64,000 nucleotides of DNA from Henckelia pumila (Eukaryota; Streptophyta; Magnoliopsida; Lamiales; Gesneriaceae). The translations under genes and the position numbers were made by a program. Positions 18,641 to 42,396 of the stretch are shown here, piece by piece. How positions within the stretch are numbered: position 1 is the stretch's first letter; every line of letters starts with the position of its first letter. The notes beneath the pieces were generated by a model. It worked only from the letters and a program-made list of their open reading frames with translations, searched no databases and was not told where the DNA came from. The stretch lies in assembly GCF_033568475.1 (NCBI RefSeq), contig NC_133121.1:195992664-196056663 (forward strand), written 5' to 3'.

Positions 18641-18665
18641 ATTTTTTCCCCCCCCCCCCCTTAAA
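18641..18665 (-). other. Element D polypurine tract
   Basis: On the minus strand a G13 run followed by A/T, directly inside the 3' LTR, where plus-strand DNA synthesis is primed. The plus strand shows C13 at 18648-18660; homopolymer length may be a sequencing uncertainty. Confidence 0.8.
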
Positions 18666-18693
18666 TTGAATTTCGTCCTCGAAATTAAAGTGC

Positions 18694-21600
18694 TTACTCG
18701 AATAACTCCAGGTAGTGAGTCCTCATGTCTGCCTCGGTCTCCCAAGTGGCTTCCTCCTCGGAATGATTCTGCCACTGGACTTTGACCATCGGTATGACCC
18801 GCGTCCTCAATCTCCGCTCATCTCTGGCTAAGATACGAACAGCCTCTCCTCAAATGCTAGATCTGGTGCTAACTGCAAAGGCTCGTAATCCAACACATGC
18901 GTCGGATTAGAGATGTATCTCCGAAGCATGGATACATGGAAAACATTGTGCACTGCTGCAAGCCCTGGCGGTAGTGCTAAACGGTATGCCAAAGTGCCAA
19001 CTCTCTCCAAGATCTTAAATGGCCCAATATATCTCGGATTCAACTTGCCTCTGTGACCAAATCTCATCACCCCTTTCATAGGTGATACTTTAAAAAAAAC
19101 ATGATCACCTACTACAAACCAAAGATCTCGTCGTCGAGTATCAGCATAACTCTTCTGACGACTCTGAGCTGTCCTCATACGATCCCGTATTTGTGTCACA
19201 ATATCGACAGTCTACTGTACAATCTCGGAACCAAGTAAAATCCTCTCGCCAACCTCATCCCAATGCACTGGCGATCTACATCTCCTCCCGTAGAGAGCTG
19301 CATAAGGAGCCATACCTATAGACGACTGAAAACTATTGTTATAGGTAAACTCCACTAATGACAGTCTAGCCTCCCAAAAGCCCTGAAAATCAATGACACA
19401 AGCTCTCAGTAGATCCTCAAGAATCTGGATCACCCTCTCCGATTGACCATCTGTCTGGGGATGGAACGCTGTACTGAATAATAGACGAGTCCCCAAAGCT
19501 GTGTGCAAACTCTTCCAGAATGCAGGCGTAAATCTCGGATCTCTGTCCGATACTATCGACACTGGTATGCCATGCAGTCTAACAATCTCCTTGATGTAAA
19601 GCTCTGCATACTGCGTCAATGAGTAAGTAGTCCTCACCGACAAGAAATGAGCTGACTTGATGAGTCTATCCACGATCACCCAAATATTTGTACATCCTCT
19701 AGTACTCCTCGGAAGGCCAACTACAAAGTCCATCGTGATGTTCTCCCACTTCCACTCCGGAATGGGTAGAGGCTTAAGTAACCCTGCAGGACGCTGATGC
19801 TCTGCCTTGACCTGCTGACAAGTCAAGCACTCTGATACAAATCGGCCAATATCTCTCTTCATGCCGGGCCACCAATACAATGACTGCAAATCTCTATACA
19901 TCTTCGTACTTCCGGGGTGAATGGAATACAGAGATGTATGAGCCTCTGTCAAGATCTCAATCCTCAACTGATCAACGTTCGGTACCCACATACGACCACG
20001 GTACTGAACGATACCATCAACAACTGTATAGAGAAGCCCGCCCTTGGCTTCATCTCTCTGCCTCAATCGCTGCAACTCCTCATTTGCAGGTTGTCCAACT
20101 CTGATACGATTTCGAAGATTCGGCTGTACCACTAACACTACCAAACTCGGTGCCTGACCGCTCGAGTACAACTCCAGCTCGAATCTCTGAATCTCCTCCT
20201 GAAGTGGCAACTGAACTGTCACACAAGATACCACTGAAGTCTTCCGACTCAATGCATCAGCCACTACATTAGCCTTACCCGGATGGTAGCTAATGTCACA
20301 GTCATAATCCTTAACTAATTCCAACCATCGGCGCTGTCTCATGTTCAACTCCTTCTGTGTGAAAAAGTACTTGAGACTCTTGTGGCCTGTGAAAATCTTG
20401 CACTTCTCACCATACAGATAGTGCCTCCAGATTTTCAAAGCAAAAACCACTGCTGCTAGCTCCAAGTCATGCGTCGGATAGTTCTGCTCATGAATCTTCA
20501 ACTGTCTCGACACATAGGCAATGACTCGGTCACTCTGCATCAATATGGCGCCCAACCCAAGCTTAGACGCGTCCGTGTAAACCACTAACTCCTCGTGTGG
20601 AACAGGCATCGCCAACACTGGCGCAGATGTGAGTGCTTCCTTAAGTCGATCGAAGCACCTCTGACAGTCTGAACTCCATATAAACTTCGCATTTTTCTTG
20701 GTCAAGGAAGTCAAGGGTACTGCAATAGAAGAAAAACCTTTGATGAACTTCCGGTAGTAGCCTGCTAAACCCAAGAAACTGCGAATCTCTGAAGCATTCT
20801 TCGGAATTCCCCAATCCTGCACTGCCTGCACTTTCGTCTGATCCACCGCTATCCCATCTTTCAAAACTATATGGCCAAGAAATGCCACCTGCTCTAGCCA
20901 AAACTCGCACTTACTGAATTTCTCATACATTCGATGCTCCCTTAAAGTCTGCAATGCTGTCTGCAAGTGCTGTCTATGATCCTCAATGCTCCTCGAGTAG
21001 ATCAAGATATCATCAATGAAGACTATGATAAACTGATCTAAGTACGGCTGAAATACGCGGTTCATGATATCCATGAAGACCGCTGGAGCATTGGTCAATC
21101 CAAATGGCATTACTAAGAAATTGTAATGCCCATAGCGTGTCCGGAAAGCAGTCTTGGTCACATCTGCATCTCTGATCCTCAACTGATGATAGCCAGATCG
21201 CAGATCGATCTTAGAGAACACCGAAGCTCCCTGTAACTAATCAAACAAATCTTCAATCCTCGGCAGTGGATACTTGTTCTTCACAGTGACCCAGTTGAGC
21301 TCTCGGTAATCGATGCAAAGTCTCATGCTACCATCCTTTTTCTTCACAAACAACACTGGAGCTCCCCAAGGAGAAAATCTAGGACGAATAAAGCCGTTCT
21401 CCAACAACTCTTGAATCTTCTCCTTCAACTCTTTCATCTCAGTAGGAGCAAGTCAATACGGTGCCTTAGAGATAGGCACAGTACCTGGTATCAGATCAAT
21501 ACTGAACTCCACCTCTCTAGCTGGTGGGACTCCCGAAACGCCCTCCGAAAAGACATCTGAAAAGTCACAAACCACCTCTATATCTGACAATGATCTGCTA

Positions 21601-22066
21601 GGTGGTTCTGATGAAGTGACTACACTGGCGAGAAAACCCTGGCAACCACGTCTCAATAACTTCCTCGCACGTGTATAAGAGATAACAGGCGAGATCTCAC
21701 TGCTCGGAGATGCATAGAAAACAAACTGGTCACCTACCCCTGGTTTCACTGCCACTGTCCTCTGCCGAAAATCAATCACTACTCCGTTGACTGACAACCA
21801 ATCCATACCCAAAATCAGATCGAATCCAGTCAACGGTAAAACCACAAAATCTGCTCTGATAGTATGTCCCTGTAACTCCATCTCCAAATCTCTGCAAATG
21901 CTAGTGGTAGTAAGAATCTGACCAGACGGCATAGTGACATCATAACCTGTAACAGCAACCTCAGGCTTGATGCCTACCCGCCTGATAAACTCTAGGGAGA
22001 TGAACGAATGCGTGGCTCCTGAATCTAGCAACGCAAACGTGGAATTTCCTCCCACTAGAATTCTCC
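18694..22066 (-). pseudogene. Element D pol: protease, RT, RNase H, integrase, chromodomain-like end
   Basis: Minus strand, in order. Protease: LLDSGATHSFIS (D-S-G). [37 protein letters not shown], catalytic FIDDILIYS. RNase [18 protein letters not shown], then ALSRK. Integrase: HHCC zinc finger ending [12 protein letters not shown], catalytic core [28 protein letters not shown] (D, D, E all present). C-terminus: VKVQWQNHSEEEATWE, a chromodomain-like tail. Stops at 21453-21455 (TGA), 21237-21239 (TAG) and 19212-19214 (TAG) are in one frame; a frameshift near 18835 precedes the last 45 residues. TAA ends the frame at 18694-18696. Confidence 0.92.
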
Positions 22067-22259
22067 CTGCACGCAGAAAATCCTAACAATCGCATACTAA
22101 ACTTACTTTTCTCCCAATACAAGTTACAAAATATTTCTCTTAATTAAACACGAATAAAATGAACATCCTACTCTAACCAAACAAACAGATAATTCATGCA
22201 ATTTAAAATCATGAAGTAAATTCCCAAAAATTTCTTAAAAGAAGAAGTTTAGGAAATAC
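22067..22259 (-). other. Putative intron at the gag-protease junction of element D
   Basis: Between gag and protease is a 193-nt AT-rich non-coding stretch with GT at its start (22259-22258) and TGCAG at its end (22071-22067). Joining the flanks gives an uninterrupted frame SLITG-RILVGGNSTFALLDSG, the normal uninterrupted gag-protease sequence of related elements. The same acceptor TGTGCAG before GGAGGATTCTGG is present in element J at 62825. This fits a spliceosomal intron; an old insertion that happens to have GT-AG ends is the alternative. Confidence 0.55.
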
Positions 22260-23287
22260 CGGTGATTAAGGAGGTATCTGGGTCTGCCTCCTCAGCCTGC
22301 ATGACAAACACCCGCCCAGTGGTGTTCTTCCTCTTCGGGCAGTTATATGAAACATGCCCTGGCTCCTTGCAAACATAGCATACATTGGACCCCACTAGAC
22401 ACTTCCCGGTGTGCGGCTTCTGACACTGCGGGCAGAACGGAACTCCTCCAGTATTAGGGGCCCCGCCCCTCTGCTGCTGCTGTGGCTGATGCCCCTGAGG
22501 CCTCTGCTGCTGTCTCTGCTGATTCGGGCCCTTAGACGGCCCAGTATACGGCTTCTTCGCAGGAGGCTGCGAAGTCGCCCTCTGATACCCTGGCTGAAAC
22601 TGCCTCTTACTCTGCTGCTCTCGCTGCTCTCGCTGCATCTCTTGCCTCCCTTCCTCAGAACGTAATGCTATGCTAACTGCCGCCTCATAAGTAGTGACAT
22701 CCAACATGCGAACGTCATGCTTGATGTCAGCCCGCAAACCATCCACAAATTGCCTCAACTTATCCGGCGCACTGTCAGCAATAAGAGGAATGAAACGACA
22801 CCCTCTCTCGAATTGGGTGATGTAATCCACCACAGACTTGTCTCCCTGGCGGAGACTCATAAACTCCCGGATCATGCGACTGCGCACATCCTCAGTGAAA
22901 TACTTGGCATAGAACATGCGTCTGAACTCTATCCAAGTCAATGTAGGTAGATTCACACCTCGAACCGCACCTTCCCACCAAGAGGCTGCATCACCTCTCA
23001 TCATATACACTGCACACTTTACCCTGTCAGCATCAGTGATCCCCATGTAGTCAAATATGGACTCCAGTGATCGAATCCATCCCTCAGCAATGAGTGGATC
23101 ACTGGTGCCGACAAACTCCTTAGGCAACATCCTCATCATGTGTGAGCCTAGGACGTGCCGCCTGCTGCTCCAACAGAGCAGTAATCCCAACCATCATATT
23201 CTCATTGGCCTGCTCCAATGACGAAAGCGGATTCTGCGGAGGTGGAGGTGGAGGTCCCCCGCATCTGTTAACCTGTCTCGGAGGCAT
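22260..23287 (-). pseudogene. Element D gag
   Basis: The capsid-nucleocapsid precursor. It starts MPPRQVNRCGG at 23287, next to a putative splice acceptor, with a Pro run. Around 23150 the frame shifts, then continues PKEFVGTSDPLIAEGWIRSL (typical chromovirus gag start) and WWEGAVRGVNLPTLTW. A Gln-rich basic segment follows, then the CCHC zinc knuckle CYVCKEPGHVSYNCP. The frame runs to SLITG at 22260, where the putative intron begins. The frameshift makes this copy non-functional. Confidence 0.85.
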
Positions 23288-23288
23288 T

Positions 23289-23418
23289 CTGCACCACCAC
23301 ATATTTCTTTACGTAAATCGCAATGCATAACTTAAGGGTTCTAAAACTTTTCTAACATGAAAATCTTAAATCATTACATGTGCTCCTTATAATTCATAAG
23401 AAAACATTTAAAACTTAC
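23289..23418 (-). other. Putative 5' UTR intron of element D
   Basis: A strong donor GTAAGT (23418-23413, minus strand) lies in the leader, and an acceptor GTGCAG (23294-23289) lies one base before the gag ATG, giving a 130-nt AT-rich intron. The donor is conserved in element J (GTAAGT, 62615-62620), where the acceptor has become GCAA. Splicing would bring the ATG close to the PBS leader. Confidence 0.5.
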
Positions 23419-23476
23419 AGACCGGCAGTAGGATTTCTGAGCTTCACGTGGCAGTAGGACACCCTCCAAGGACCGC

Positions 23477-23488
23477 GCTCTGATACCA
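23477..23488 (-). other. Primer binding site of element D (initiator tRNA-Met)
   Basis: Reverse complement TGGTATCAGAGC, two bases inside the 5' LTR end at 23491; the standard chromovirus primer. Confidence 0.9.
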
Positions 23489-23490
23489 AT

Positions 23491-26125
23491 TGAAACGCTT
23501 ACTACTAATAAATGCAATTTTTTTTTATACTACTATACATACATGCCCATACATATATGTATATAAAAATAACATACTTTTTCTTAAATAACCTGAAAAA
23601 AATATTAAATAAATAAATCCTTAAAAATGTTTCATGCATCAATTTAAAATAATAAACAATGCTGTTGAAAAAAATCTCATATGCGGAAACAATAATAAAA
23701 TAAAACATGTTTCAAAACTCAACATAATAAACTAAATAGCTGCGACGGTCACGGGGTCCACTGCTTCGTGAGCTCATAAGTACTCACCACCGGTAGGAGC
23801 TACATAAACGTCATCATGCTCACCTGCACCATATAAGCGTAGTGAGCCTAGGGGCTCAACATGTCTAATCCTTTATAACAAGGTTAAAAATAATGCATCA
23901 CATAATTACTAATACATATACATGTACTTGAGCATGCATGGAAATATTTTCATCACATAATAAAACTGCTGAATCATAAACTGAATCATAACCATAATCA
24001 TAAACATATTATTTCTTCATCATATATAACATAATTGAGCAATGATTTTGAAACCTGAAGATGGTCCTATCCATAAGTGTGACGCTCATGTGTCGACTGA
24101 TCAGTCTCCTGAACCAACGTACGATGGCGGTGATAAATCACCTTCTATGGTAGTAAACTACCGAATCATATGGTGGATAACCACCCCTATGGTAGTAAAA
24201 CTACCGAATCATATGGTGTAAAACCACCCCTATGTCACACATACTTCAATTTCTACCAAAATATTTTATTGCTCATCATTTACATAATTATATACATAAG
24301 AAATTTCATGAATGCATGCACTGAAAATATGTCTGTAATATATATTTAATTAATTTTTCATAATATACTTAAAATAGACTTCATGCATAAAAATAATTAA
24401 ACATATATTCCGGACTTATTTATTTTTCATGGGTTGGTCCAGACTGCTGGTCTCTCTAATAAGCCCCATAACTGACTTAAAGCCCATTAACTAACTTAAA
24501 GCCCATAATTAAATAAATAATTTTAAAAATTATATTTTTTACTAAATAAAATACTTAAATATTTTTGGGCTTAAATAAAAATATTTTGGCCCATTAACTA
24601 ATTAATTCATAAAAATTCATTGACTGACCCATAAAATCACTGACTGGCCCAAAAATATTCATGGGCTCCCAAGACCATAAAAATCATTGGGCTAACATAA
24701 ATAAATTATTTAAGTCCCAAATAAAATTATTTGGAGGCCCAAATAATTTTCTAACTAATTATTAAAGCCCAAAATACACTTAAAACTATTAAATACTTAA
24801 CAATTAAAATACCCAAGCCCGGCCCACCTAACCCGGACCCGGACCACATGACCCGACCCTAGACCTACCAGACCTGACCCGGACCCCAATACCCCGGCCC
24901 AAACCCAGCTCAGCCCAAAAACCCGATCCCCCTTGCCCAGCTCACTTCGGCCGAGAGAAGCAGGCCTTCTTGGCCTGCTGCCGGCCAGCTTCGGCCACCC
25001 CTGGCCGGAGCGCCGCCGCCCAGATGTAGCCCACATCTGGGCTGTCCTAACCCACCATGCCTCAGCCCGAGCCATGGATCCTAGCCCTGGACGATCCCCT
25101 CTTCCAAAAACCCTAGTCTGCGCGCCTCTAAGACCCCCAACTGAACTAGCTTCGAACTTAGCCCAAACCAGCCTGAACCAATTGACCTTGCTCGATCCTA
25201 AGACACCCTGGGACACCCCTTGACCAAGCCCTAGCCTCTGGACCGAGCCATGCAACAAGAAAACATGAATCATGACTGAAACCATCAACAAACATGCATC
25301 AAATCATACATTCTTGCATAAAACAAAAAGTTCCTGATAAATTCTGAAATAAAAACCATCATGCGTGAATAGTAGCTTATATGGTGTTCAAACGAAAGAA
25401 TAGACATGCCTTAGATGAAGATAAACGAAAAAACGAGACAATAATCGCGTGTACGGCGCTCCGGGACGAACGAATCTTCTTGATTTCTTGAAAACCTAGA
25501 AGGCTTTGGCTATGGTGTGAAACTTTCTGATGCAACGTGAGGAAGATGATGAAAAAATATGGGGGAGGCGGCTAAAGATTTTTTAATCGGTATAGGGATT
25601 GATTTTTAGGTTTAATTTGAGTAGATATTGGTTTAAATAAATAACAATAATCAACATAAAGATAATATACCAACAAAACTTTATTTAAATCTCCTAATAA
25701 TAATAATAATCTGATACTAAAACTCAAATCCCGAAATTAAGACTTAAGGGATTTTTAAAAATTAATAAAAGTCAATAAAATGACTTATTTTGGCTAAAAA
25801 TCAACCCTTAAATAAGTATATAATTAAATACTAAAATTTTCTTGACAAAAATATCTTAAAATAATATTTTAAGACTAATAAAACTCATAAAATATTTTTG
25901 GCTAAGAATTTTGGTATCTCGTTCGTCCACGGTCCCGTCTACGCGATCAAAACCAATAATTCCTTAAAAATCTAAAATAGCAGGTTAAATGCTAAAATAA
26001 ATTAAATCATGCATATAATTCACATAATAACACATAAATGTCATTTAACCCAAATATAAATTTTAAATAATTATTTTCCTTAATTATGCATGCAAATTTA
26101 CGTATTAAAATTTTTGGGTGTTACA
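23491..26125 (-). repeat. Element D 5' LTR (right copy)
   Basis: Partner of 15974-18640, starting TGAAACG and ending GGGTGTTACA. It contains the same mini-hairpin array (24125-24235) and the GC-rich block (24815-25220). Small indels separate it from the left copy, including loss of one 23-bp repeat near 24740. Confidence 0.92.
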
Positions 26126-26696: not shown

Positions 26697-27193
26697 ATAA
26701 TGAAATTCCAATAATATTGGGACGTCCATTTCTAGCAACTTCAAATGCTTTAATTAATTGTCGAAATGGAATAATGAAATTGTCTTTTGGAAATATGACT
26801 TTAGAACTTAATGTGTTCAATTTAAGTAAATAACCAAGTATCAATGAAGATGAAGATGATAATGCAATAGAAAATATCATGGAAGAATGTCAAAAAGAAA
26901 ACTTAAATCAACAATCTGATGTTTTTTTAGTGGAAAATTTTGATTTGAAAAATATTTTTGAATCAAAACTATTTGAAGAAAACAATCAACTTGAAGAAGA
27001 AAATGTAGTAGCCGATCATTTATCAAGAATAATTTGTGAATCATCTCAAAATGAAATACCAATAAATAAAAATTTTCCGTATGATCAACTATTTTATGCT
27101 ACTACTATGCCTTTGTTTGCTAATATTGTAAATTTTCTTGTGACAAATAAAATATCTTCTCATTGGAGTTCACAAGATAAAATAAATTCTTGA
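26697..27193 (+). pseudogene. Element A protease end fused to RNase H tail (RT deleted)
   Basis: Directly after element F the frame reads NEIPIILGRPFLAT and CRNGIMKLSFGNMTLE, the end of an Athila/Tat protease. TAA at 26831-26833 is followed in the same frame by a low-complexity acidic segment, then NVVADHLSRI, which is the very end of RNase H. The whole RT and almost all RNase H (normally about 500 residues) are absent between them. This is an internal deletion, not an insertion, so this copy cannot reverse-transcribe itself. Confidence 0.8.
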
Positions 27194-28394
27194 AAGAGGT
27201 AAAAAAATTTTATTGGGATAATCCTTATTTATTTAAGTATTGTCCTGATTAAATTTTTCGACGATGCATATCCGACAATGAGGTAAGTAGTGTCATTAAA
27301 TTTTGTCATTTTGAGGCATGTGGAGGTCATTTTTCGTCAAAGAAAACAGCTGCAAAATTCTTTCGATGTGGATTTTATTGGCCTTCTTTATTCAAAGATA
27401 CGCATTCATTTTGCAAATCTTGTGAAAATTGTCAGAAAATGGGTTCAATTTCAAAGCGAAACATGATGCCTTTAAATCCAATCATGATTATTGAAATATT
27501 TGACATTGGGGAATAGATTTTATGGGTCCATTCCCATTATCTTTTGGATTTACTTATATTTTAGTGGTTGTCGATTATGTTTCAAAATGGATTGAAGCAA
27601 TTGCATGTAGAACTAATGATCATAAAGTTGTGAGAAAATTTTTGAAAGAAAATATTTTTAGCCGATTTGGAATACCTAGAGCTATAATCAGTGATGGGGG
27701 AAGTCATTTTATAAATATATCATTTTCTTCGTTGTTAAGAAAATATGGTATTACACATAAAGTTTCTACTCCATATCACTCTCAAACAAATGGTCAGGTT
27801 AAACTTGCAAATGAAGAAATAAAACAAATTTTGGAAAAAACAGTCAATCCAAATCGAAAAGATTGGTCTTTAAGATTAAGTGATGCATTATGGGCATATA
27901 GAATTGCATTTAAAACATCATTAGGGATGTCACCATATAGATTAGTTTTTGGTAAGCATTGTCGTCTACCTGTTGAAATTGAACATAAAGCTTATTGGGC
28001 AATTAAAGCATTTAATACTAATTTAGATGATGCATCTAAATTAAGAAAATTGCAATTAAATGAACTAGAAGAATTAAGAAATGATGCATATGAAAATGCA
28101 AATATTTATAAAGATAAAACAAAAGCCTTTCATGATAAAAATATTATGAGAAAATCGTTTGAAATTGGACAAAAAGTTTTACTTTATAATTCTCGCTTGC
28201 ATTTGTTTCCAAGAAAACTTAGATCACGATGGACAGGTCCATATGTTGTAAAAAATGTTTATCTTCATGGTGCTGTTGATGTTGAAAATCCTAAAAATAA
28301 TAATGTGTTTAAAGTTAATGGACAAAGACTTAAACCATTTTTAGAAAATGAAATTCTTAATGATGAGTTTATGCCTTTATATGATCCAAATTAA
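27194..28394 (+). pseudogene. Element A integrase, frameshifted, catalytic Glu replaced
   Basis: The HHCC zinc finger is at about 27310-27440 (CHFEACGGHFSSKKT, then FCKSCENCQK). A frameshift lies near 27508, at the first catalytic Asp. The core then continues as 290 aa open from 27522: [18 protein letters not shown] (second Asp), and [15 protein letters not shown], where the expected catalytic Glu of GQVE is Lys. The C-terminus has [24 protein letters not shown] codons also occur near 27196 and 27249. Athila/Tat lineage. Confidence 0.88.
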
Positions 28395-28546: not shown

Positions 28547-28547
<1 letters not shown>

Positions 28548-28852
28548 TGGATGTTTGTATTTTTAATCTTCGTAAATATTTTCGTGGTATAGCTGATAAT
28601 AAGTTGAAAAATATTTATAAAGCTAGATGCGAGAGATTACGTTTACTTATGTCGTATAATATTCGTGATGATATTCGCTTTGCTATTGAAGCAAAGGTTC
28701 CACTTGATGGGGAATCAAGTAAGATCATTATCAAACAAATGCCTGGATTTGGAAAAAGTACTTATGCAAAAAAACGTGGAGCTAAAAATATAGGTGGATG
28801 TTACAAATGTGCTAGGTGGACTTGTCACGAACATTGTAGGAATTTGGAATGA
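28547..28852 (+). CDS. Accessory ORF 1 of element A: small basic Cys-rich protein, viral NABP-like (tentative)
   Basis: An intact 101-aa ORF. The N-terminal half is helical-looking and basic. The C-terminus has a basic patch (KSTYAKKRGAKNIGG, residues 70-84) followed at once by a Cys/His cluster (C85, C88, C93, C97: C-x2-C-x4-C-x3-C). A basic YA-K/R-R patch just before a small zinc finger is the layout of the Cys-rich nucleic-acid-binding proteins of carla-/viti-like plant RNA viruses, several of which suppress RNA silencing; spacing of the last two Cys is tighter here. It could equally be an element-specific nucleocapsid-like protein. Its stop overlaps the next ATG (ATGA). That it is a real intact ORF is firmer than its family. 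Confidence 0.55.
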
Positions 28853-29169
28853 CATCCACAAACAGAGAAGATAAAATATTATTCATTAGGAATGGGCTGA
28901 GTAAAGAACCATTGGATCCACTTCCAATGTCTCTTGAGACGCATTCCAGTGAATACGTGCAAAATGAACTTCTTAAACTGTGGACAAAATTTATTTATGA
29001 GAGGGATCATTATATAGATTGTCTTGCATTTAATGTGGATCCGTATATCGTCTATCAGAAGAATTGGGTATTTCAACTCCAACGAGAAGAGATAGATGGT
29101 ACTACCCCCGATGGTAACGTATATATTTCACTTTTTATGTGTGTATGTTTTCTACTATTCATATTTTGA
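28849..29169 (+). CDS. Accessory ORF 2 of element A: unknown 106-aa protein
   Basis: An intact ORF whose ATG overlaps the stop of ORF 1 as ATGA, an arrangement compatible with termination-reinitiation. I do not recognise a family. It has an acidic/aromatic middle (LLKLWTKFIYERDHYIDCL, DPYIVYQKNWVFQLQ) and a hydrophobic end (FMCVCFLLFIF). A donor-like GTAACG at 29114 falls in GATGGTAACG; if used, the hydrophobic tail would be intron sequence and the protein about 88 residues before the junction. A/T-rich third positions match the rest of element A. Confidence 0.5.
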   Translation: MTSTNREDKILFIRNGLSKEPLDPLPMSLETHSSEYVQNELLKLWTKFIYERDHYIDCLAFNVDPYIVYQKNWVFQLQREEIDGTTPDGNVYISLFMCVCFLLFIF

Positions 29170-29268
29170 CTTTTCGTACAATTGTTTTTCTATAAATGCA
29201 TGCTTGAATTTTCTTTACATATTGAAAAAAAAAAGAGTGTGAGAGAGAAATTAAGAAAAGAAAAAAAC

Positions 29269-29907
29269 ATGGCAGGATCTGCTTCACAAAAATTGAAAAA
29301 TATTTGTGTATTTTGTGGTTCTAATACTGGAAAGAATGAAATATTTGTTGATGCAGCAATTAATCTTGGAAAAAATTTAGCAGAGAGAAAAATTCACTTG
29401 GTATACGGAGGAGGCAATATTGGGTTAATGGGATCTATTTCAACAGCAGCTCATCTTGGAGGTAGCCAGGTTTTGGGTATTATTTCTACAGCTTTAGTTG
29501 AAGGAAATATTACAGGTGTTACGGTTGGGGAAGAGTTGAAAGTTTCATCAATGCACGAGAGAATAACTAAAATGATAGATAGTTATGATGCTTTTATTGC
29601 CTTACCAGGTGGTTTTGGTACTTTAGAAGAAATTTTTCATGTTTTTTCTTGGGCACAACTTAATATTCATAATAAACTTGTTGGATTGTTGAATATCAAT
29701 AACTATTATGATGGTTTGTTGACTTTTCTTGATGTAGCTGTGGAACAAAATTTCATTTCAGAAAATTCACGAAAGATGCTCATCTATGCTTCGAATGACG
29801 ACCAATTAATTGATGATCTCAAAGCTTTTGTTCATCAACCTGATTCGGCTATAACAAATATCAATTGGTCTCAAACAACCAGTAAGAAAAGGAATCTGGA
29901 TCATTGA
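29269..29907 (+). CDS. LOG: LOG cytokinin riboside 5'-monophosphate phosphoribohydrolase carried by element A
   Basis: A complete 212-aa ORF of normal LOG length. LOG releases active cytokinin bases from their riboside 5'-monophosphates in one step, in cytosol and nucleus. The Rossmann-like fold begins at ICVFCGSNTGK (12-22); the nucleotide-binding loop is VYGGGNIGLMG (45-55); Arg98 is in SMHERITKM; the family-defining PGGFGTLEE is at 113-121; and WAQLNIH-KLVGLLN follows. No stop, frameshift or lost key residue is seen. Start: MAGSAS at 29269 follows an A-rich purine leader; TATAAAT at 29191 could be its own promoter. Plant LOG genes have several introns and this copy has none, so it was probably acquired through an mRNA. 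Codons are as A/T-ending as gag, suggesting long residence. Confidence 0.92.
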   Translation: MAGSASQKLKNICVFCGSNTGKNEIFVDAAINLGKNLAERKIHLVYGGGNIGLMGSISTAAHLGGSQVLGIISTALVEGNITGVTVGEELKVSSMHERITKMIDSYDAFIALPGGFGTLEEIFHVFSWAQLNIHNKLVGLLNINNYYDGLLTFLDVAVEQNFISENSRKMLIYASNDDQLIDDLKAFVHQPDSAITNINWSQTTSKKRNLDH

Positions 29908-31330
29908 TTTAACGTGTCACAAAATGGTTTGTGTTTGTTCCTCATCTTCAATAAATTTCAGGTGATATCTCTTTCATCATGTACTCTTTATTTTTCTTAA
30001 AAAATTAAAAACAATGTCATATTCATGTTTGGGGGAGGGTTTATCTCTAAAAAAAATTATTAAAATTTAAAAAAAAAAAAAATTGCTATAATAATATTTA
30101 TTTTTCTTTTTCAACGGCAGAGTAAGGAGTCAAAAACTCCTGACACGAGTAAGTTTTTATTTATTGTATTATCACAATAGATTAGATTTTAATATTCCGT
30201 ATATATTTAAATTGCAAACTACTAAGAAAACGAAGTCTTTTTGTATATATGTTTGTTTACACTTCTTTTTATCAATTTAATAGAAAATATATAATTGATG
30301 GGATATAAGTTATAAATAATATATAATTGTGTGTTTTCAAATAACATATTTTCTAAAACTTTTATGATTATATAGTTAAAGTGATATTGATTGAATGAAT
30401 AATAACATGTATAATTGAAGGAATTAAATTGTAAAAGTGCAATCTATACTCACATAAATTTTGTGAGTGAGAGGTGAGAATTGAGAAAAAAACTTATAAG
30501 CTTTTATTGATAATTAAGAAATGGTTGATTACTAGATTAAACCCATTTTGAAAAAAAAAACAAAACAAAAAAAAATTGTGCATATAAAAATTGGCTGCAA
30601 AGTTGTTTGAAGTTTGATTTTAATGATGTAGAGTATTAATATTACTATTATAATTCTCATGGTAAATTTTTAATAGATTTACCTCATAAATAAATAAATA
30701 AATAAACTTTGAAAATAGAAAAAAAGAAAAAAAATGTTACATATTCAAAGTTTATTGTAGTTATTTGGTTTTGTAAAAACAAATTTGCAGCCAAGTGCAT
30801 AAAAAAAAAAGAAAAAAAAATTGAAAAAAAAAACAAAATGGGTTTATTCTTTGTAAATTATCCTATCTTATTTTCAATATTAGGTTATTTGATTGTCTGC
30901 TTTACTAGCCATTTTCAATGAGTGTATAATTTTCTTCCAACTCCATGAGTGAAAAACAGCTATATATGAAATATCATAACCCGAGAGAATATGAAGTTGA
31001 GACTTTTACATTAAAATTTCTGATATTATACATATTATGAAAATAATTTCTATTATCATTTTGATTATATTATTCTCAAAATTTTAAGAAAATATTTATA
31101 TAAAAAAATTATTTATATTTAATATTTTGATATTGTGTGAAATATATATGTATAACCCATCCAATTATATATTGATATATTAGTTGATAACAAGATTTAT
31201 AAATAAACATATAATCACCTTATAAGTGTGTTTTAAAATTTCAAAGTTTGCAAATTTGAATATATATATTAAGGAGTAAAAATCTAACTTGTGATTTTAT
31301 GATATTTTATTACTAAGGGACTAGTAATTA
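29908..31330. other. 3' non-coding region of element A
   Basis: AT-rich, without coding signal. It holds a PPT-like GTTTGGGGGAGGG near 30027-30040, as is common after pol in Athila/Tat elements. It also holds a diverged inverted repeat: AAACCCATTTTG and TGGCTGCAAAGTTGTTT (30538-30610) pair with AAACAAATTTGCAGCCA and CAAAATGGGTTT (30777-30845). Several A-rich runs occur. Confidence 0.55.
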
Positions 31331-31345
31331 GCCGGTTTGGGGGTG
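31331..31345 (+). other. Element A polypurine tract
   Basis: GCCGGTTTGGGGGTG immediately precedes the 3' LTR (TGATG at 31346). It is short, with the G5 core typical of Athila/Tat. Confidence 0.6.
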
Positions 31346-32467
31346 TGATGAAACTTAAAATTTGTAATTATTTATCTGTTAAAAATTGTGTTTTAAAATT
31401 AAAGTTTCATTAAAATTATGAAGTATTATTTTATTGTTATGTGTTTATATTTAAATATTTTACTAAAAATGTTGTATTTTATGTTTTGCGCAGGTTTGAT
31501 AAAAATAAAATTACTCAAGCTACAAAGGTTATATTGGAGTAATCTCAAATCCTGTAGAATGAAAAAAGAGGTATCTTCAACTTTGTAGAATACAAGAAAT
31601 TCCAAAAACCTCATTAAGATGATCAAAATAATCAAAAATCAAAATGAAGACAGATTTACTTTTACTATGATCTGCTTGTAGTAAAAATATCATAACTATT
31701 TCATCTTTTACCCAAAAGAGGTGAATTATATGTCCAAACACATCTACACAAAATATCATACGTGTTCTATGTTGAATGAAAAGGCTGAATCGGTAGTCTA
31801 AAGTATCAAACATGCCAATTAATGTTGGGTTATGGTATTGACATTCAAGGAGACAAGCAGCCACCAACTTTACTATTCCACATTTAATGAGCCTTGGACT
31901 CTTGCTCTTATTTGGCCTATAAATAGATGTGTTGTATAAGCTTTGTAGTGTGCAAAAGTGTAGAGAAATTCCTCACTTGTAAAATAAATATTGTGTGTGT
32001 AAGAATAAGAGTTTGAGTGTGCATATTTCTCCAAGTTTAAGTATGAAATTTCTTTTATCCTTACTCTTGAGTCTTATGTTCATGGCAAGATAAATCCTTT
32101 TATGTCAAGGTGAAAAGGTTTCATTGTTGTTCAAGTAAGATTTTTTATATTTTGTATATTCTTTCCTTTTCTATTTTTATTTTTACTAATTGATCTTTAT
32201 TTGTAGGTATAATTTGAATGATTTATTGTTATCTATTTACATCAAATACTTGGTACTTTGAATGTGGTTACCTTGATTTGTTGTCTAATATGATACAATA
32301 AATACTACAATAATTATATACTATAAATATATGTATCAATTTATAATAAAGTCATATATATTATTTAGACAATAGCGTGGTTCTGCCGGTTGTTCTAAAT
32401 AATATATTGTGATTTGAACTAACATTTAATTTTCCGCAACTAACATTTACTTTTTCGCAACTAACAT
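31346..32467 (+). repeat. Element A 3' LTR, first part
   Basis: Aligns with 7538 to about 8660 of the 5' LTR. It is interrupted at AACAT (32463-32467), the target site of element B. The LTR resumes at 41750. Confidence 0.9.
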
Positions 32468-35255
32468 TGTGAAGACCTCGGGTGCTAATCTCAATTATCG
32501 ACATTCAATCAGAATTACACTGATAATTAAACTAATAACTTACAAGCAAACAAATTAAACTTGAAAGCAAAAGCAATAAAAAATTTTATTTTTATTTTTA
32601 AAAAAATCAAGGCCTCGCTAGATCGGTAAAAGTTCACCGATCGAGCGAGCACAAATTCAGAAACTTTCTGCCCGCAATTCAAATGGCCTCGCTCGATCGG
32701 TTAAAGTCCACCGATCGAGCGAAAGGTTTGGTGCAGAAATCCAGAATCTGCTGTTGCTGTCCTATGCAATATATAAAGGGCTTGAAATATTCAAAGCATC
32801 ACAATTCCATACTAGAATGATCTAAAGGCAAGCTACAAAGTATAACATGCATACAAACTCAAACCTTAACTTGTACAAGTTTCTACAATGCAATACATCA
32901 AACTCATAAGTTGCATACAAGTATTGAAACTAAACTTCCAACAACTAACTTATACAAGGTTTGACAACATATATACAAAATTCAGGTAGCTCAAAACATC
33001 AATTGACAGCAACTTCTATTCTTAACCCGAGTCTCCACCCTAATCTCTCAATATCTCGTTTCCACGTCAAGTCCGACTCGAATATTCTTCAACCTGATGC
33101 AATGCACACATACAAGAAAAACAACAGCCGGATAACTCCGGTGAGAATAAATCTCGGTATGAAAGACATCTATATAAATCAAATAGAAATAAATCAATCA
33201 AGTAATTTACTATTACAATCAACAATTTCCTTATACCTTACCTGCCGGATGTCTTTCAAATAAACTCATTCAATATCATAAAGACTCGAATACGGTTGAA
33301 GGTTAAAGGATTCAAGTCTTACAGAATCGATAATTTAAAAATTCATATCGTTGGGATCCCGGGAATATAATCAGGCCATAAAAAAATCAGCCTCCCACCT
33401 ACGCTCCCGCTCGGGGTGGTAAAATCTGATATTCCCTGGACTGTGAACACTATATTGAGAACCGTGGCAAAAGAAATCAAGTCAGATCCCTAGCCTCTCG
33501 CATATAAGTTCACCACGTCCAATATTTTCTTTTCGATTCTGTTTTCAAGGTTTCGAAAGAATTGTGGCTCAAAGAGTTTACTCTCAACTCTATAATCAAT
33601 CTACCACAACTCAACACTTCAAAATAATCGAAACCAACAATCTCAAATAAATTATCCATCATATATCTCAACAAGAAATCATGTTGAAAGCAAACAACTC
33701 ATATATCAATTAACTCAATCAACAAAGTCAAGTAATTCATAGAATCATATAAGATTAAGTAAAACACCTAATCATGCATGTATGTGATTTAATAAACTCG
33801 AAAACCACCACGTCTTTGAGTTATACTACCTGTCGAATTAATGTCGAATCATACCTTGATCTTGATCTTTACTTCTCAAAACTCTTGTAACTTCTAAACA
33901 ACAACAACAAGCTTCTCAAAATTCTGCTCACTTCACTTCTTGTTCATTCTTCTTTAGTTGTGTCCAAATTGAAGCTCATTTCAAATCAATTCCGGACTCG
34001 TCGACTCGACTTCAATACTTTCCAAATTAAATATGAATTACATTGTTTAAAACTCAACATCAGCTTCTAAACATCATTACAATTCATCAAGCAGCAACTA
34101 CAATTCTTGATCGATTGAACGGAATTTAAACCGACGGCGCAACGATTCAAATTCGATAAATCCAAAGGCTTACACATCATCTAAAAAAATTGATCTAAAT
34201 CTAATATCAACCTCAATATATAATCCATAATTCGAAAATAGCATCCCAATAATTTTAGAATTTCATATCAATTCAAAATCTTCTACCGACGGCACAACGG
34301 ACCGGAATCGAAAATTCTAAAAGCATTAACATCATCTTCTCAATCATCTAAACACATATTCATATCAATTCCCATCAGCCATACACGAATTCAGCAGCAT
34401 AATATTTCCAGAATTTCAGAAAATATTCAAAAATTGATAAATATGCCCGAACAACGATCTTTTCACGATTCGACTTAGATATGCTATCGTCGTATATACT
34501 AGAACATGTTTATACAATCAAATCTTAATTCTAACAACATCTTAAAATTCAAACACGGTAGAATTTAGCCAAACTTACGTCAAAGTGTAGAACTCGAAGC
34601 CGTGATCGCAAATATACGATCAATTTGAAATTCTACCGGCCGGATCGATTTCTATGAATTTTTGAAAGACAAGAATCGGCCATGGAATCAATTCTCTAAG
34701 TTTTCTGCCTCTTCTCTCGTTGGAACTCTGATGGAATACATGCAATTTCATATGGAGTTACATGTGTGATCCACTTGCCAACAATTGGAATTTTTCCCTT
34801 TAGTCCTTGAATTTCTTAATAATTGCAAATCGGTCCTTGGAACCTTCATCCATCTCTCTCTCGGTATTACTGTTGCTGAAGGGAATATATACACATGCAA
34901 AGTGTAATATTAATCTCTTGTTGACAAGTCAAATCCCATTTTTGTAGTTTAGCCCTTGAAACTTCGATATTTGCAGTTCAGTCCCTGCTCGAGTTTCTTC
35001 TTCCAATTAAATCCTTTAATTCTTGGAACATGGAATTTGAATCTTAAATCCCATAAATATTCAATTAGAATATTTAATCTTTTAATTTAAGAATCCCGGA
35101 ATTTTAATTCTCAAAACCCATAAATTCTAAAATTAAATATTTTCGGCTCGAAAATTGAATCTCTAATTTCCATAAATTCCAAATTGAATATTTTCCAAAT
35201 ACGAAATTTAAATCTCTAATTCCGTAATTAATATTCATATTTTCAGGGCCTTACA
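32468..35255 (-). repeat. Element B 3' LTR (left copy)
   Basis: Near-identical to 38956-41744. Contains the paired hairpins built on CTCGATCGGT (32614-32649 and about 32690-32725). A shared open stretch of 100 codons at 32961-33263, also present in the other LTR, has no recognisable domain and I regard it as LTR sequence. Rich in short direct repeats of A/T motifs. Confidence 0.92.
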
Positions 35256-35275
35256 ATTCCTCCCCTCTAAGGAAT
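35256..35275 (-). other. Element B polypurine tract
   Basis: Reverse complement CTTAGAGGGGAGGAAT directly abuts the 3' LTR. It confirms the minus orientation. Confidence 0.8.
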
Positions 35276-37617
35276 GATTTCGTCCTCGAAATCGCATTCA
35301 ATCTTACCACAAAATCTCATAAACTGAAAAGCTGCCTGAAGTAATTCTTACTTCTATTCTGTGAATTCAGATATCTGTTCTGATATCTCTTCTCATCTTT
35401 TCCTTTCTGATCACTTATTCAATCATATCAATTTCATTCTTCCGTAGTCACTGAGTTAACTCCCTTCTAAGCTGCTCTTACTCCTGATCAAAATCTGTAT
35501 TGATCATTCCAATTATTTCACAACCTTATCAGGTTCTATTTCCTCTAATTGGAATTCATAGACAAGAGTTTAATTGATGTTCTTCCGCGTATACACCAGA
35601 AACAAGTCTTATTTATTCACAAACATCTAGATCGTTTCTGGGCTCTCTCTTTCTGAATCAAATGGTGCTTCAAACAGAACAGTTCTCACTGATCATTCCG
35701 TTCAAACTTCAAAATTTATATCTGTCATTCAATTTCCAACTCGGTCCAGTCTGCACTGTTCTTATTCTGTTCGGATCAATCTTTACATTTTCTTTATTTT
35801 CACAAACCATATCCGGTCTAATCGCCGATATTTCGGAAATACTCTCTCAAAATAAAGAAATTCCTGATTCTGTTATCATCTCATAATCAAAACTCTATCT
35901 CTATATCCATTAGTTAGCTGTTACAAGAATCAGAATCATCAAGTGGCAAAATTAAATCAGATAATACCGAATCAGATACTATAATTCTGAGCATTTCAAA
36001 AACAAAATCTGGATAGTCGCCTCAGACAATCCATCGATCAGAGGATGGTATAGTGCAATCACCTCCAATCAAACACTCAGAATCTCTGAAAATCGATGCC
36101 ACACTCTCTCAAATAACTCTAAAGTCTCTATCTCGACAATAGATTTCAATGATTCTTGTAATCTTATAACATCAATATCTTCTTAACAACTATCTAATCA
36201 TATCTGTATTCCATCTAATACAGTATATTATTAAATTGGTCGGAACTTATCTTCAATCCATTCGCAAACTCTTGACAACTCGAGTAGTTTCAACTAAAAT
36301 TATTTCGAAAATTTGATCTTACTTCAACTCAAAAATCATAAAACCGTTTCATAGCACATTCAGTCTCCTCTTTTCTGCTTCTTTTACAGGAAATTTAGAT
36401 ATTGATACTTCAATTCGGTCGTATCTGTTTCCATTTTCTTTCATCAATACTAAATTCCGAGTAATTCATACATTTTTCAAACAGCTAAATGGATATTTAA
36501 TCTGTTGTAGTATGCCTTTTTCAGGATGTGATATCTCATATCTAGATTACCCGACACACTCAAACGAATATTCATTTCAACATCCATTCTTGTTTCTAAA
36601 TTCTAATCGCTTAATTTATACTCAATGTTGCTTTAATCTCTCCAAACAAATTTAACATAGTTTGGATTGCAACAATCCTGAATATTTGAGTATTTTTTCT
36701 AGAAACTCAAGTACAAACAAAGTCTTTAATCAGTCGATCAAGCCTTAATATCCAGTTCTGGCAAAATCATACAATCAATTCAAAATTCTTACTGGTACTC
36801 TGACTCCAAATTTCTATCTGTTACGAGTCAAAATCATCAAAATATACTGAATTTATATACCAAAAGATCAACGACTCTTGCAATTCATAATCAAAGAAAC
36901 TCACTCAAGTAGAGGTCATCCAAAGATCAAATATTCTGAACGACAAAATTTGCAAAGTGAAAACAACTCACTTGCATCTCGACTTTAAGCGAGTGAATCA
37001 AATCAGACTCTAACAAAGAATAAGAGTCAATCAAAACCAATCGAGGTCGAATACAAAACCTCATAATCGATATCAAGAAATTCAAGAGTCATGATTCCAT
37101 GATATACTAGATTCAGCAAAATCAAAAAGAAGACTCAACTGTAACTGATTTTTGTACTTATCTTATCAAATTTCTAAATTGTTCCCAAATAATCATGATT
37201 GATCCAAAACTTATTCAATACCCAAAATAAGCGGAACCTGAATTTGATAATTCTCGCAATATTTCAAGTAACACAATCAACTTCCTTTCAATCTGATTTC
37301 TATCAAACTCTAATTCAGCTTTTCTGATACAAGTACTGATATCTTCTTTCTTAGCCGTTCATCACGATTAGTTCATAATAACTATTTCAGATAAAGGTTC
37401 AACATACCGTTAATGTAACATAATAGATTATGCAACTATATCTATATGCAATGCACCCAGTTTCATCAATATACAGGAAAATTACTCAAAACTCAAATAT
37501 ACCTGTAATGTCATCATCTGGTGCATATTGAACCAAAGTATCGGTAGATGCTTGTTGTCTCAGAGTTGGATCTTCATTCAAGTTTTTCCTCGTTCCCCAA
37601 GGATTAGGACACACTCT
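35276..37617 (-). pseudogene. Element B pol remnant, decayed and shortened
   Basis: About 2.3 kb where a pol of about 4 kb would be expected. No frame is open for more than short runs. One recognisable trace is HPLIDGLSEATIQ near 36053-36015 (minus), the worn integrase block normally [10 protein letters not shown]. The first 30 bp retain the family signature GAT TTCGAGGACGAAAT. All catalytic motifs are unreadable. Apart from this I see nothing in the stretch. Confidence 0.6.
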
Positions 37618-38478
37618 CTAAAAATGTCCCACTTCATAGCAACGATGACATTTTCCTAAAGTTCCTCGGCATTCGTCGCTAGCATGTTTTCCTCCACAAT
37701 GAGTACAGTATTCGCCGGCAAATTCTGCTTTCTGACCTATACGAAGTTGCTTCAATCTGCTAGAGCTAGAAGAGCTACTTTCAGACTTCTTGAATTGTTG
37801 CCTCAAATGCTGTAACCGCTTTTCACTTCCACTAACACTACCTCCTGCCTCATAGCAGCTCTGTGATGACAATTGTGACTGAAAGTGCGGTTGTTCAAAA
37901 TTCTGAGGCACGATTGAACTTTCTTTCTGTCTCATAAAACTGTCGTCAGCTCTTTTAGCCCTGTCAGTAGCATCAACCAATCTATTTGGTCGCCCAACAT
38001 CTATCCAAGCATAAATTTCCGGATTCAGTCCATTGATAAACAAATTCGTTTGGACTTCTTCATCCTGAATTATGTGAGGAACAAATCGGAGCAAATTGGA
38101 GAATTTAGCAACATACCCATCGATAGTCAAATTTCCCTGTTGCAAATTAACAAATTCTCCTGCTCTATCTTCTCTATAAGATCTCGGAAGAAATTGTTGA
38201 CAAAATTCAGTCTTAAATACCTGCCAAGAAATTACTATACCTCTGTTTTCCATACATTGCTTCGTCGCAAACCACCAGCTTCTTGCTAAATCTTGCAGTT
38301 GGTATACAACAAGTTTGATTCTTCGTTCATCAGAGTATTCTAAAGATTCAAACCATTGATCAAGCTCTTCTAACCAACCTTCACAAACATTCGTATCTTC
38401 GGTACCTTTCAGAATTGGCGGATTATAAGTCTGAAATCATTCAAATAGCACCTCCATCGGTGTGAGTGTAGCATCCAT
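37618..38478 (-). pseudogene. Element B gag (one internal stop)
   Basis: The frame starts MDATLTPMEVLFE at 38478, reads a TGA at 38437-38439, then continues NPPILKGTED, CEGWLEELDQWF and RSWWFATKQCMENRG. From 38253 it is open for 211 aa: VFKTEFCQQFLPRSYREDRA, LQQGNLTIDGYVAKFSNLLR (gag capsid core), a Ser run, and zinc-knuckle sequences (CTHCGGKHASDEC, CHRCYEVGHF). TAG/TGA follows at 37618, just where the second knuckle should finish. Homologous to the gag of element C. It might still supply a truncated Gag by start at an internal Met. Confidence 0.8.
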
Positions 38479-38955
38479 CGATTCTGATAGGTTACTACAA
38501 TACTGATCTGTTCAATCGGAGGTAATTCCTTCACTTGCGGAGTACTGTTCGGTTCAATCTAGGGTGCTTACATCACCCAAATAACCTGACTTACTTGAAA
38601 AGAAAATTCATAAGCAACACAGAGATTATACTATTCAAATCATTAAAAAAAATAATACATATAATCTCATGCTTTGTCATAATACACATGCTTACAATTC
38701 TTCATGCTATTCAAAGAAACATGCCTACAAGGAATTCAAAATTCATGTGAATTCACATAATCAAGTAAGCACATAAATATTTAAGCATGTACTCAAATAA
38801 TTTTTTTTTTCCAAGAAGTAAATCACACTCACATACATTTTATCAATTTCAGTAAAGCATCAATCAAGCCATACTAAAAAAAAAATGCATGCGACTCGAT
38901 CTACCCCGCTCAATTTCTATCTTATTCCAAGAACTTACGCTCTGATACCACCTGT
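38479..38955 (-). other. Element B leader and primer binding site
   Basis: The PBS is at 38939-38950 (reverse complement TGGTATCAGAGC, initiator tRNA-Met), 5 bp from the 5' LTR. The rest is untranslated leader up to the gag ATG at 38478; nothing else is recognised in it. Confidence 0.75.
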
Positions 38956-41744
38956 TGTGAATACCTCGGGTGCTAATCTCAATTATCGACATTCAATCAG
39001 AATTACACTGATAATTAAACTAATAACTTACAAGCAAACAAATTAAACTTGAAAGCAAAAGCAATAAAAAAATATATATTTTTTTAAAAAAAAATCAAGG
39101 CCTCGCTCGATCGGTAAAAGTTCACCGATCGAGCGAGCACAAATTCAGAAACTTTCTGCCCGCAATTCACATGGCCTCACTCGATCGGTTAAAGTCCATC
39201 GATCGAGCGAGAAGGTTTTGTGCAGAAATCCAGAATCTGTTGTTGTTGTCCTATGCAAGATATAAAGGGCTTGAAATATTCAAAGCATCACAATTCCATA
39301 CTAGAATGATCTAAAGGCAAGCTACAAAGTATAACATGCATACAAACTCAAAACTTAACTTGTACAAGTTTCTACAATGCAATACATCAAACTCATAAGT
39401 TGCATACAAGTATTGAAACTAAACTTCCAACAACTAACTTATACAAGGTTTGACAACATATATACAAAATTCAGGTAGCTCAAAACATCAATTGTCAGCA
39501 ACTTCTATTCTTAACCCGAGTCTCCACCCTAATCTCTCAATATCTTGTTTCCACGTCAAGTCCGACTCGAATATTCTTCAACCTGATGCAATGCACACAT
39601 ATAAGCAAAACAACAGCCGGATAACTCCGGTGAGAAAAAATCTCAGTATGAAAGACATCTATATAAATCAAATAGAAATAACTCAATCAAGTAATTTACT
39701 ATTACAATCAACAATTTCCTTATACCTTACCTGCCGGATGTCTTTCAAATAAACTCATTCAATATCATAAAGACTCGAATACGGTTGAAGGTTAAAGGAT
39801 TCAAGTCTTACAGAATCGATAATTTAAAAATTCATATCGTTGGGATCCCGGGAATATAATCAGGCCATAAAAAAATCAGCCTCCCACCTACGCTCCCGCT
39901 CGGGGTGGTAAAATCTGATATTCCCTGGATTGTGAACACTATATTGAGAACCGTGGCAAAAGAAATCAAGTCAGATCCCTAGCCTCTCGCATATAAGTTC
40001 ACTACGTCCAATATTTTCTTTTCGATTCTGTTTTCAAGGTTTCGAAAGAATTGTGACTCAAAGGGTTTACTCTCAACTCTATAATCAATCTACCACAACT
40101 CAACACTTTAAAATAATCTAAACCAACAATCTCAAATAAATTATCCATCATATATCTCAACAAGAAATCATGTTGAAAGCAAACAACTCATATATCAATT
40201 AACTCAATCAACTAAGTCAAGTAATTCATAGAATCATATAAGATTAAGTAAAACACCTAATCATGCATGTATGTGATTTAATAAACTCGAAAACCACCAC
40301 GTCTTCAAGTTATACTACCTGTCGAATTAATGTCAAATCATACCTTGATCTTGATCTTTACTTCTCAAAACTCTTGTAACTTCTAAAGAACAACAACAAG
40401 CTTCTTAAAATTCTTCTCACTTCACTTCTTGTTCATTCTTCTTTAGTTGTGTCCAACTTGAAGCACATTTCAAATCAATTCCGGACTCGTCGACTCGACT
40501 TCGATACTTTCCAACTTAAATCTGAATTACATTGTTTAAAACTCAACATCAGCTTCTAAACATCATTACAATTCATCAAGAAGCAACTACAATTCTTGAT
40601 CGATTGAACGGAATTTAAACCGACGGCGCAACGATTCAAATTCGATAAATCCAAAGGCTTACACATCATCTAAAAAAATTGATCTAAATCTAATATCAAC
40701 CTCAATATATAAGCCATAATTCGAAAATAGCATCCCAATAATTTCAGAATTTCATATCAATTCAAAATCTTCTACCGACGGCACAACGGACCGGTATCGA
40801 AAATTCTAAAAGAATTAACATCATCTTCTCAATCATCTAAACACATATTCATATCAATTCCCATCAGCCATACACGAATTCAGCAGCATAATATTTCCAA
40901 AATTTCAAAAAATATTCAAAAAATGATTAACATGCCCGAACAACAATCTTTTCACGATTCGACTTAGATATGTTATCGTCGTATATACTAGAACACGTTT
41001 ATACAATCAAATCTTAATTCTAACAACATCTTAAAATTAAAATACGGTATAATTTAGCCAAACTTACGTCAAAGTGTAGAACTCGAAGCCGTGATCGCAA
41101 ATATACGATCAATTTGAAATTCTACCAGCCGGATCGATTTCTATGAATTTTTGAAAGACAAGAATCGGCCATGGAATCAATTCTCTAAGTTTTCTGCCTC
41201 TTCTCTCGTTGGAACTCTGATGGAATACATGCAATTTCATATGGAGTTACACGTGTGATCCACTTGCCAACAACTGGAATTTTGCCCTTTGGTCCTTGAA
41301 TTTCTTAATAATTGCAAATCGGTCCTTGGAACCTTCATCCATCTCTCTCTCGGTATTACTGTTGCTGAAGGGAATATATACACATGCAAAGTGTAATATA
41401 AATCTCTTGTTGAAAAGTCAAATCCCATTTTTGCAGTTTAGCCCCTGAAACTTTGATATTTGCAGTTCAGTCCCTGCTCGAGTTTCTTCTTCCAATTAAA
41501 TCCTTTGATTCTCGGAACATGGAATTTGAATCTTAAATCCCATAAATATTCAATTAGAATATTTATTCTTTTAATTTAAGAATCTCGGAATTTTAATTCT
41601 CAAAACCCGTAAATTCTAAAATTAAATATTTTCGGCTCGGAAATTGAATCTCTAATTTCCATAAATTCCAAATTGAATATTTTCCAAATACGAAATTTAA
41701 ATCTCTAATTCCGTAATTAATATTCATATTTTCAGGGCCTTACA
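38956..41744 (-). repeat. Element B 5' LTR (right copy)
   Basis: Partner of 32468-35255; contains the promoter for the minus-strand transcript. Two hairpins lie in tandem near its 3' (inner) side: a perfect 14-bp stem at 39102-39115/39124-39137 with an 8-nt loop, and a 12/14-bp stem at 39176-39189/39198-39211. Confidence 0.92.
39102..39211. repeat. Tandem hairpins in element B LTR
   Basis: Arms CTCGCTCGATCGGT and ACCGATCGAGCGAG (39102-39115, 39124-39137) pair perfectly. A second hairpin with the same core follows at 39176-39211. Both are conserved in the left LTR, with one arm mismatch each. Confidence 0.85.
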
Positions 41745-41749
41745 AACAT

Positions 41750-42391: not shown

Positions 42392-42396
42392 TAATT

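Follow-up and report, generated by a model that had tools for sequence, protein, structure and literature searches.

We describe a stretch of 64,000 nucleotides from Henckelia pumila (Gesneriaceae; contig NC_133121.1, positions 195,992,664 to 196,056,663 of the forward strand), called the window below, in which a Ty3/gypsy retrotransposon, element A, carries a gene of the LOG family of cytokinin-activating enzymes. Element A spans 7538-42391 with the target site duplication TAATT at both ends, and LOG lies on its sense strand between the integrase and the 3' long terminal repeat (LTR), with a second cargo gene, for a carlavirus-type cysteine-rich protein, upstream of it. A preliminary description of this DNA had recognised an intronless LOG gene as cargo of an LTR retrotransposon from the LTRs, the duplication and the sense LOG after the integrase, and this stands, as does what it proposed on long residence, further copies, a clade of their own and constraint. 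However it overlooked the carlavirus-type open reading frame (ORF), the decay of the window's copy and a prior report (PMC9289625).

The LOG protein and the copies of its element

The window protein is above the curated cut-offs of Lysine_decarbox (125 bits against 27) and TIGR00730 (171 against 96), its sequence matches LOG proteins of solved structure, and its fold, modelled with confidence, also places it in the LOG family, with DprA and SLOG proteins matching at lower Z. R98 and the PGGxGTxEE motif are both present, the latter as PGGFGTLEE, so that the motifs are intact as first described. With the NCBIfam equivalog model NF058542, the cut-off of which is 300 bits, the protein scores 118.7 and four relatives score 121-142. 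However NF058542 serves to name bacterial and archaeal proteins and does not define plant LOGs; three host plant LOGs, among which are the Arabidopsis At5g11950 protein and a second protein that is a 98% near-copy of At2g37210, also miss it (116-133 bits), and the cut-off thus does not separate plant LOGs.

A DNA search of the window's genome (884.7 Mb) with its LOG gave 339 first-look candidates, and the best 40, located on C1-C4, C72 and C103, were scored. Each of the 40 is full length; the window's own matches at 100%, and the remaining 39 have 95-96% DNA identity. Twenty of the 39 further loci were read together with some 3 kb of either flank (about 7 kb in all) and the other 19 as LOG only. 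In the 20 extended loci the integrase is upstream of LOG in 17 (the exceptions are L018, L021 and L027) and 3' LTR sequence is downstream in 19 (all but L029). For 15 of these loci we could locate where the LTR stops: nine enter DNA unlike the other flanks or element pieces tested and are therefore separate insertions, four (L019, L020, L021 and L026) lead into the element's own leader, and two (L017 and L027) lead into other element sequence.

On C4 there is a tandem array of three copies (L010, L019 and L020; 61908938-61929906) with steps of 10157 and 10173 bases. It has gag and reverse transcriptase (RT; read in L049), then RNase H, integrase, the cysteine-rich frame and LOG (in the adjoining L020), and the same frames were scanned with Pfam in the neighbouring unit L019. 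The order gag, RT, RNase H, integrase of gypsy elements is thus found in this array, assembled from the separate pieces L049, L020 and L019. The structural features of Ty3/gypsy are also there, namely LTRs, a 5-bp target site duplication and a primer-binding site, which was read in L026 as TGGCGCCGTTGCCGGGGA and is presumably of the tRNA-Asp type. Pfam scans of the element pieces gave no match to a chromodomain or a second RNase H. We tentatively take the family to be Athila-like from the look of its RT and primer-binding site, and two Athila-like elements with similarity to LOGL4 were reportedly described by Steinbauerova and colleagues in 2011. The gag of L019 starts with a long run of asparagine codons.

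The LOG frame is open, with neither stop nor indel, in 34 of the 40 copies, and the ATG (29269 in the window) and the final stop are present in all 40. Among the open copies R98 is kept in 31/34 and PGGFGTLEE likewise in 31/34. The mean pairwise ratio of non-synonymous to synonymous divergence (dN/dS) is 0.39 over the 40 copies, 0.38 without the window and 0.58 for the window against the rest. Variants private to one copy comprise 67 non-synonymous (N) and 19 synonymous (S) changes and 6 stops, those in 2-4 copies 22 N and 12 S, and those in five or more copies 8 N and 9 S; there is no stop among the shared variants, which pooled are 30 N to 21 S. Under random mutation N/S is expected to be about 2.5-3.3. 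By Fisher's test single and shared variants differ at p = 0.021, and single variants differ from the class of five or more at p = 0.015. When the changes are placed on a tree of the 35 distinct LOG sequences, N:S is 107:38 for the end branches and 19:16 for the inner ones (p = 0.038). Private changes in LOG look neutral and shared ones constrained, the signal being a modest one.

The integrase provides a comparison from the same elements. In 18 of these copies its dN/dS is 0.41, and the contrast between end and inner branches (152:31 against 25:37) is stronger than for LOG, although on the inner branches the difference between the two genes is not significant (p = 0.21). With the window excluded and copies having less than 90% of a stretch dropped, pairs of copies differ on average by 3.1% in LOG (20 copies), 4.5% in the integrase (17 copies), 6.6% in the adjacent non-coding stretch (16 copies) and 6.5% in the part of the LTR compared (16 copies), a comparison biased by the choice of loci on LOG similarity. 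The pattern, within the modest strength of the signal, is that of an element gene which is constrained while the element is active and drifts after insertion.

It could be argued that LOG is a passenger, captured once and of no benefit, with open frames that reflect youth only. Some copies are indeed young (35 distinct LOG sequences among the 40), LOG singletons look neutral, and the constraint signal has p values of 0.02-0.04. However shared variants are depleted in non-synonymous changes and include no stop, and a clade with intact motifs across several eudicot families, as described below, is not expected for a neutral rider, so that we find a passenger improbable. Still less probable, in our view, is that the constraint comes from use by the plant of some element copies as cytokinin genes. 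The annotation of some relatives as LOGL10 or LOG3-like speaks for such co-option, but the constraint is in variants common to dispersed copies, in parallel with the integrase, and the domestication of a few copies would not put many under constraint.

Relatives in other plants

In the protein search 8000 candidates were scored and 120 of the 7886 matches were listed. Those 120 include at least 29 from Reevesia pubescens (with 15 chromosome labels), at least seven each from Populus and Xanthoceras, at least six from Diplodiscus and at least one each from Primulina and Parasponia, and 69 are without a species name. Four of the listed relatives were looked up and come from Malvaceae, Salicaceae and Sapindaceae, which are rosids, and Gesneriaceae, which are asterids. 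Gene models P0003, P0004 and P0015 of Xanthoceras each have two LOG-like stretches in a row, possibly the result of annotation across neighbouring element copies.

Of the 100 sequences in the tree, 32 are relatives, left from the 112 full-length ones once these had been thinned at 88% identity, and 65 are host LOGs, left from 99 by thinning; the window and two bacterial LOGs make up the rest. The window and all 32 relatives form one clade (support 99/96) and all 65 host LOGs another (100/96), the host set being from a search with two Arabidopsis LOGs that could have missed more distant host paralogues. The separate clade of element copies that the preliminary description looked for is thus found, apart from the sampled host LOGs, and, as the clade holds both rosid and asterid proteins, its suggestion of long residence in the element is supported. 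It had also named the finding that would count against it, a single copy that joins a host paralogue; such a one-off capture with unique flanks is ruled out by the copy number, the element context, the separate insertions and the clade.

We suggest that one spliced LOG mRNA would have been captured long ago and then copied along with the element. Capture of a spliced form is indicated because 0/40 genomic copies have any intron, and host LOG genes contain introns; that it was ancient is indicated because one clade holds rosid and asterid proteins. Horizontal spread of a LOG-bearing element may be an alternative to ancient capture alone.

Many members of the clade have a distinctive tail. An LxLxL C-terminal end, which we take to resemble the EAR repression motif, is present in 95 of the 112 full-length relatives listed, in most of them after a basic stretch, and in 0/120 host proteins. 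The window's subclade has the basic stretch and no LxLxL, and the basic tail, SKKRKLDH, is kept in 31 of the 40 copies in this genome. Both tails would suit a LOG that is selected for something other than cytokinin, with its Rossmann-type fold reused for nucleotide chemistry or for binding RNA or DNA in the particle, or with the basic tail as a nuclear tether, and the lower-Z matches of the fold to DprA and SLOG proteins point the same way. We consider such a role unlikely.

LOG domains in plant Gypsy elements have been reported before. According to the passages of PMC9289625 on such domains, the consensus sequences of Gypsy elements from Citrus sinensis and C. clementina contain a YgdH (LOG) domain, as do, without the filter, those from Populus trichocarpa; the paper cites Steinbauerova et al. 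2011. As here, these are LOG-family ORFs inside plant Ty3/gypsy elements; there the domain is listed and the LOG family named in section 12, while Henckelia pumila adds to those passages a copy count and a selection test, a tree in which host LOGs are included, a tail specific to the clade, and one more cargo gene. Together with the number of protein copies, that report makes it probable that the relatives in other species also lie in elements. Gypsy elements of Phalaenopsis have likewise captured and kept an ORF for an enzyme, an AlkB-type RNA demethylase, for which the authors argue a benefit to the element (same paper, in the part concerned); it differs in being another enzyme, with activity measured in vitro, whereas our LOG is known from sequence. 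Sense ORFs between pol and the 3' LTR, extra or env-like, are described for plant Ty3/gypsy elements including Athila in the relevant parts of PMC7264820 and PMC6317226 (with further background in PMC11963269), and are mostly of unknown function, whereas here they are for a cysteine-rich protein and LOG. Our literature search, over titles and abstract openings, gave no pointer to LOG in retrotransposons besides PMC9289625, and none to retrotransposons with a carlavirus-type protein. Gypsy elements with LOG domains are then of a known kind, and what we did not find published is the selection test, the tailed clade and the carlavirus-type partner.

The cysteine-rich gene and the possible role of the cargo

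The second cargo gene is present, in some state, in 18 of the 20 extended loci (all but L021 and L027), 15 with a larger subtype and three with the window's subtype, and it is a single frame only in some copies, such as L011, L015, L023 and L024. In the window it is split, and the first frame (28547-28852) scores 26.9 bits with PF01623 against a cut-off of 20.9. Five cysteine-rich ORFs scanned from element copies all passed the PF01623 cut-off and four passed that of Viral_NABP. A protein search gave 7 related proteins, and the fold model has a predicted local distance difference test (pLDDT) score of 59. Viral contigs searched for LOG, the cysteine-rich protein and integrase, and genome contigs searched for the cysteine-rich protein, gave no usable match, the sole one (L001, 29% identity) not being used. 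The protein shares a basic stretch and Cys motif with the cysteine-rich proteins of carlaviruses and allexiviruses (PF01623, PF05515), and differs in being retrotransposon-encoded and longer, with about 30 residues matching PF01623, and in being known here from its sequence. According to the relevant part of PMC12172455 the viral proteins suppress RNA silencing, and p12 of chrysanthemum virus B is reported as a transcription factor that causes hyperplasia.

The 15 copies of the larger subtype give a dN/dS of 0.43, and N, S and stops are at 55:12:7 among single variants and 17:14:3 among shared ones; the three shared stops show that broken versions have multiplied too. The two subtypes have 90 of 182 residues in common (49% in protein; dN 0.44, dS 1.21), whereas the LOG beside either is 95-96% identical to that of the window. 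Such divergence next to near-identical LOG genes suggests that the cysteine-rich module has been exchanged between element lines.

We put at about 0.6 the probability that LOG is a genuine, selected gene of this Athila-like Ty3/gypsy family, and that it encodes an active enzyme that would raise cytokinin and so favour the element. Selection would retain the LOG protein in copies that are spreading, and each copy would drift once inserted. The protein is most likely an active phosphoribohydrolase and would raise free cytokinin in the cell that expresses the element, and the raised cytokinin would favour division or meristem identity and thereby give new insertions access to the germ line. The upstream carlavirus-type zinc-finger protein may help by damping RNA silencing or altering transcription. 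Taken further, the two genes could be a cassette for reprogramming of the host, in which LOG would raise cytokinin and the virus-related cysteine-rich protein would dampen silencing or work as a transcription factor, an idea we offer tentatively and think rather doubtful as it stands. If true, the retrotransposon would, like some plant viruses and gall-forming microbes, provide itself with cells that divide and are permissive.

Several points weigh against a selected, cytokinin-raising LOG. The enzyme activity, the effect on cytokinin and the benefit to transposition are plausible steps that we infer. The selection signal in LOG is modest, dN/dS rises to 0.51 in the 21 copies with long stretches, and the low divergence of LOG beside the non-coding stretch is partly from choosing loci by LOG; the 40 copies are the best matches to the window's gene and no random sample. 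Position 98 is K in 3 of the 34 open copies, and PGGFGTLEE is altered in 3/34. The upkeep of the cysteine-rich gene is less clear than that of LOG, with its shared stops in 15 copies. In the tree, the program flagged long branches for the bacterial outgroup, the host branch and one relative. The DNA is from the window's genome, and for other species the link to elements is by way of protein copy number and, for Citrus and Populus, PMC9289625.

For most of the extra ORFs in plant retrotransposons no function is known. The LOG cargo is predicted to be an enzyme of a well-known and easily assayed reaction that controls meristem activity, selection appears to retain it in a family of high copy number, and it stands beside a virus-like regulator. 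Manipulation of a plant hormone by a retrotransposon for its own spread thus becomes testable. We suggest caution in annotation, as high-copy genes named LOGL10 or LOG3-like may be element genes.

The window's own copy and its nested insertions

The features of element A in the window are given in the table. No reverse-transcriptase frame was seen in this copy of the element, and lacking that enzyme it would be unable to move by itself; it is a decaying member of the family. Its LTR pair differs by 4.6% in the longest aligned piece, and at a substitution rate of 1.3e-8 per site and year it would have been inserted about 1.8 million years ago.

Table. Features of element A and of the insertions within it (window coordinates)
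Feature	Position	Strand	Basis
Target site duplication TAATT, left	7533..7537		sequence
5' LTR of element A, TG...CA	7538..9193	+	blastn against 3' LTR pieces, 93.7-96.8% in three main pieces
Primer-binding site, degenerate	9200..9216	+	direct sequence
gag, broken by stops	9326..10301	+	Retrotrans_gag 5.2e-18 at 9584-9880; frames
Foreign DNA within gag, CACTA-type start, far limit not placed	10302..15973	+	CACTACAAGAAAA at 10302; repeats
Nested Ty3/gypsy element C	15974..26125	-	LTRs 15974-18640 and 23491-26125, 96.2%; minus-strand gag-pol frames
RNase H end (by eye) and integrase zinc-binding domain, two frames	26834..27516	+	Integrase_H2C2 1.7e-12
Integrase core and C-terminus, frame open	27522..28394	+	rve 3.9e-16
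Carlavirus-type cysteine-rich protein gene, split (28547-28852 / 28840-29169)	28547..29169	+	Carla_C4 PF01623 4.7e-6, first frame
LOG ORF, 212 aa	29269..29907	+	open frame; profile matches
Non-coding, LOG to 3' LTR	29908..31345	+	GC 0.22
3' LTR, part one	31346..32467	+	95.4% to 5' LTR
Nested element B, splitting 3' LTR	32467..41745		LTRs 32467-35256 and 38955-41745, 97.3%
3' LTR, part two	41742..42391	+	LTR match
Target site duplication TAATT, right	42392..42396		sequence

The LOG of the window is an open frame with a predicted function. It has the most private changes among the 40 copies, nine of which eight are non-synonymous (the median is 1), and has S at residue 73 where 37/40 copies have P. 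In a comparison with P0002, one of the relatives, its unique residues number 19 to 3 (p = 0.0006), and the 19 nevertheless tend to lie outside the most conserved columns (p = 0.008). Decay of the window copy was considered as the reason for this excess and set aside: only 4 of the 19 positions are among its private changes, and most of the difference from P0002 is thus a property of the family as present in this genome.

The insertion at 10302-15973 opens with CACTACAAGAAAA and has GACAACGC repeats; its other end was not seen within 10201-15990 or 26101-27500. It contains scraps that resemble host genes, a Vta1-like one at 13877-14092 (0.0028, below the cut-off) and a CIAPIN1-like stretch at 11603-11791 that was judged by eye and gave no match in Pfam. 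We dropped these as cargo of element A, as the CACTA-type end favours a nested transposon, and the insertion is perhaps a gene-carrying CACTA transposon. Outside element A there is a second gypsy element at 301-6454 on the minus strand, whose integrase shares 50% identity with the one in element A, and beyond this second element's integrase an ORF at 301-774 matches PF20167.
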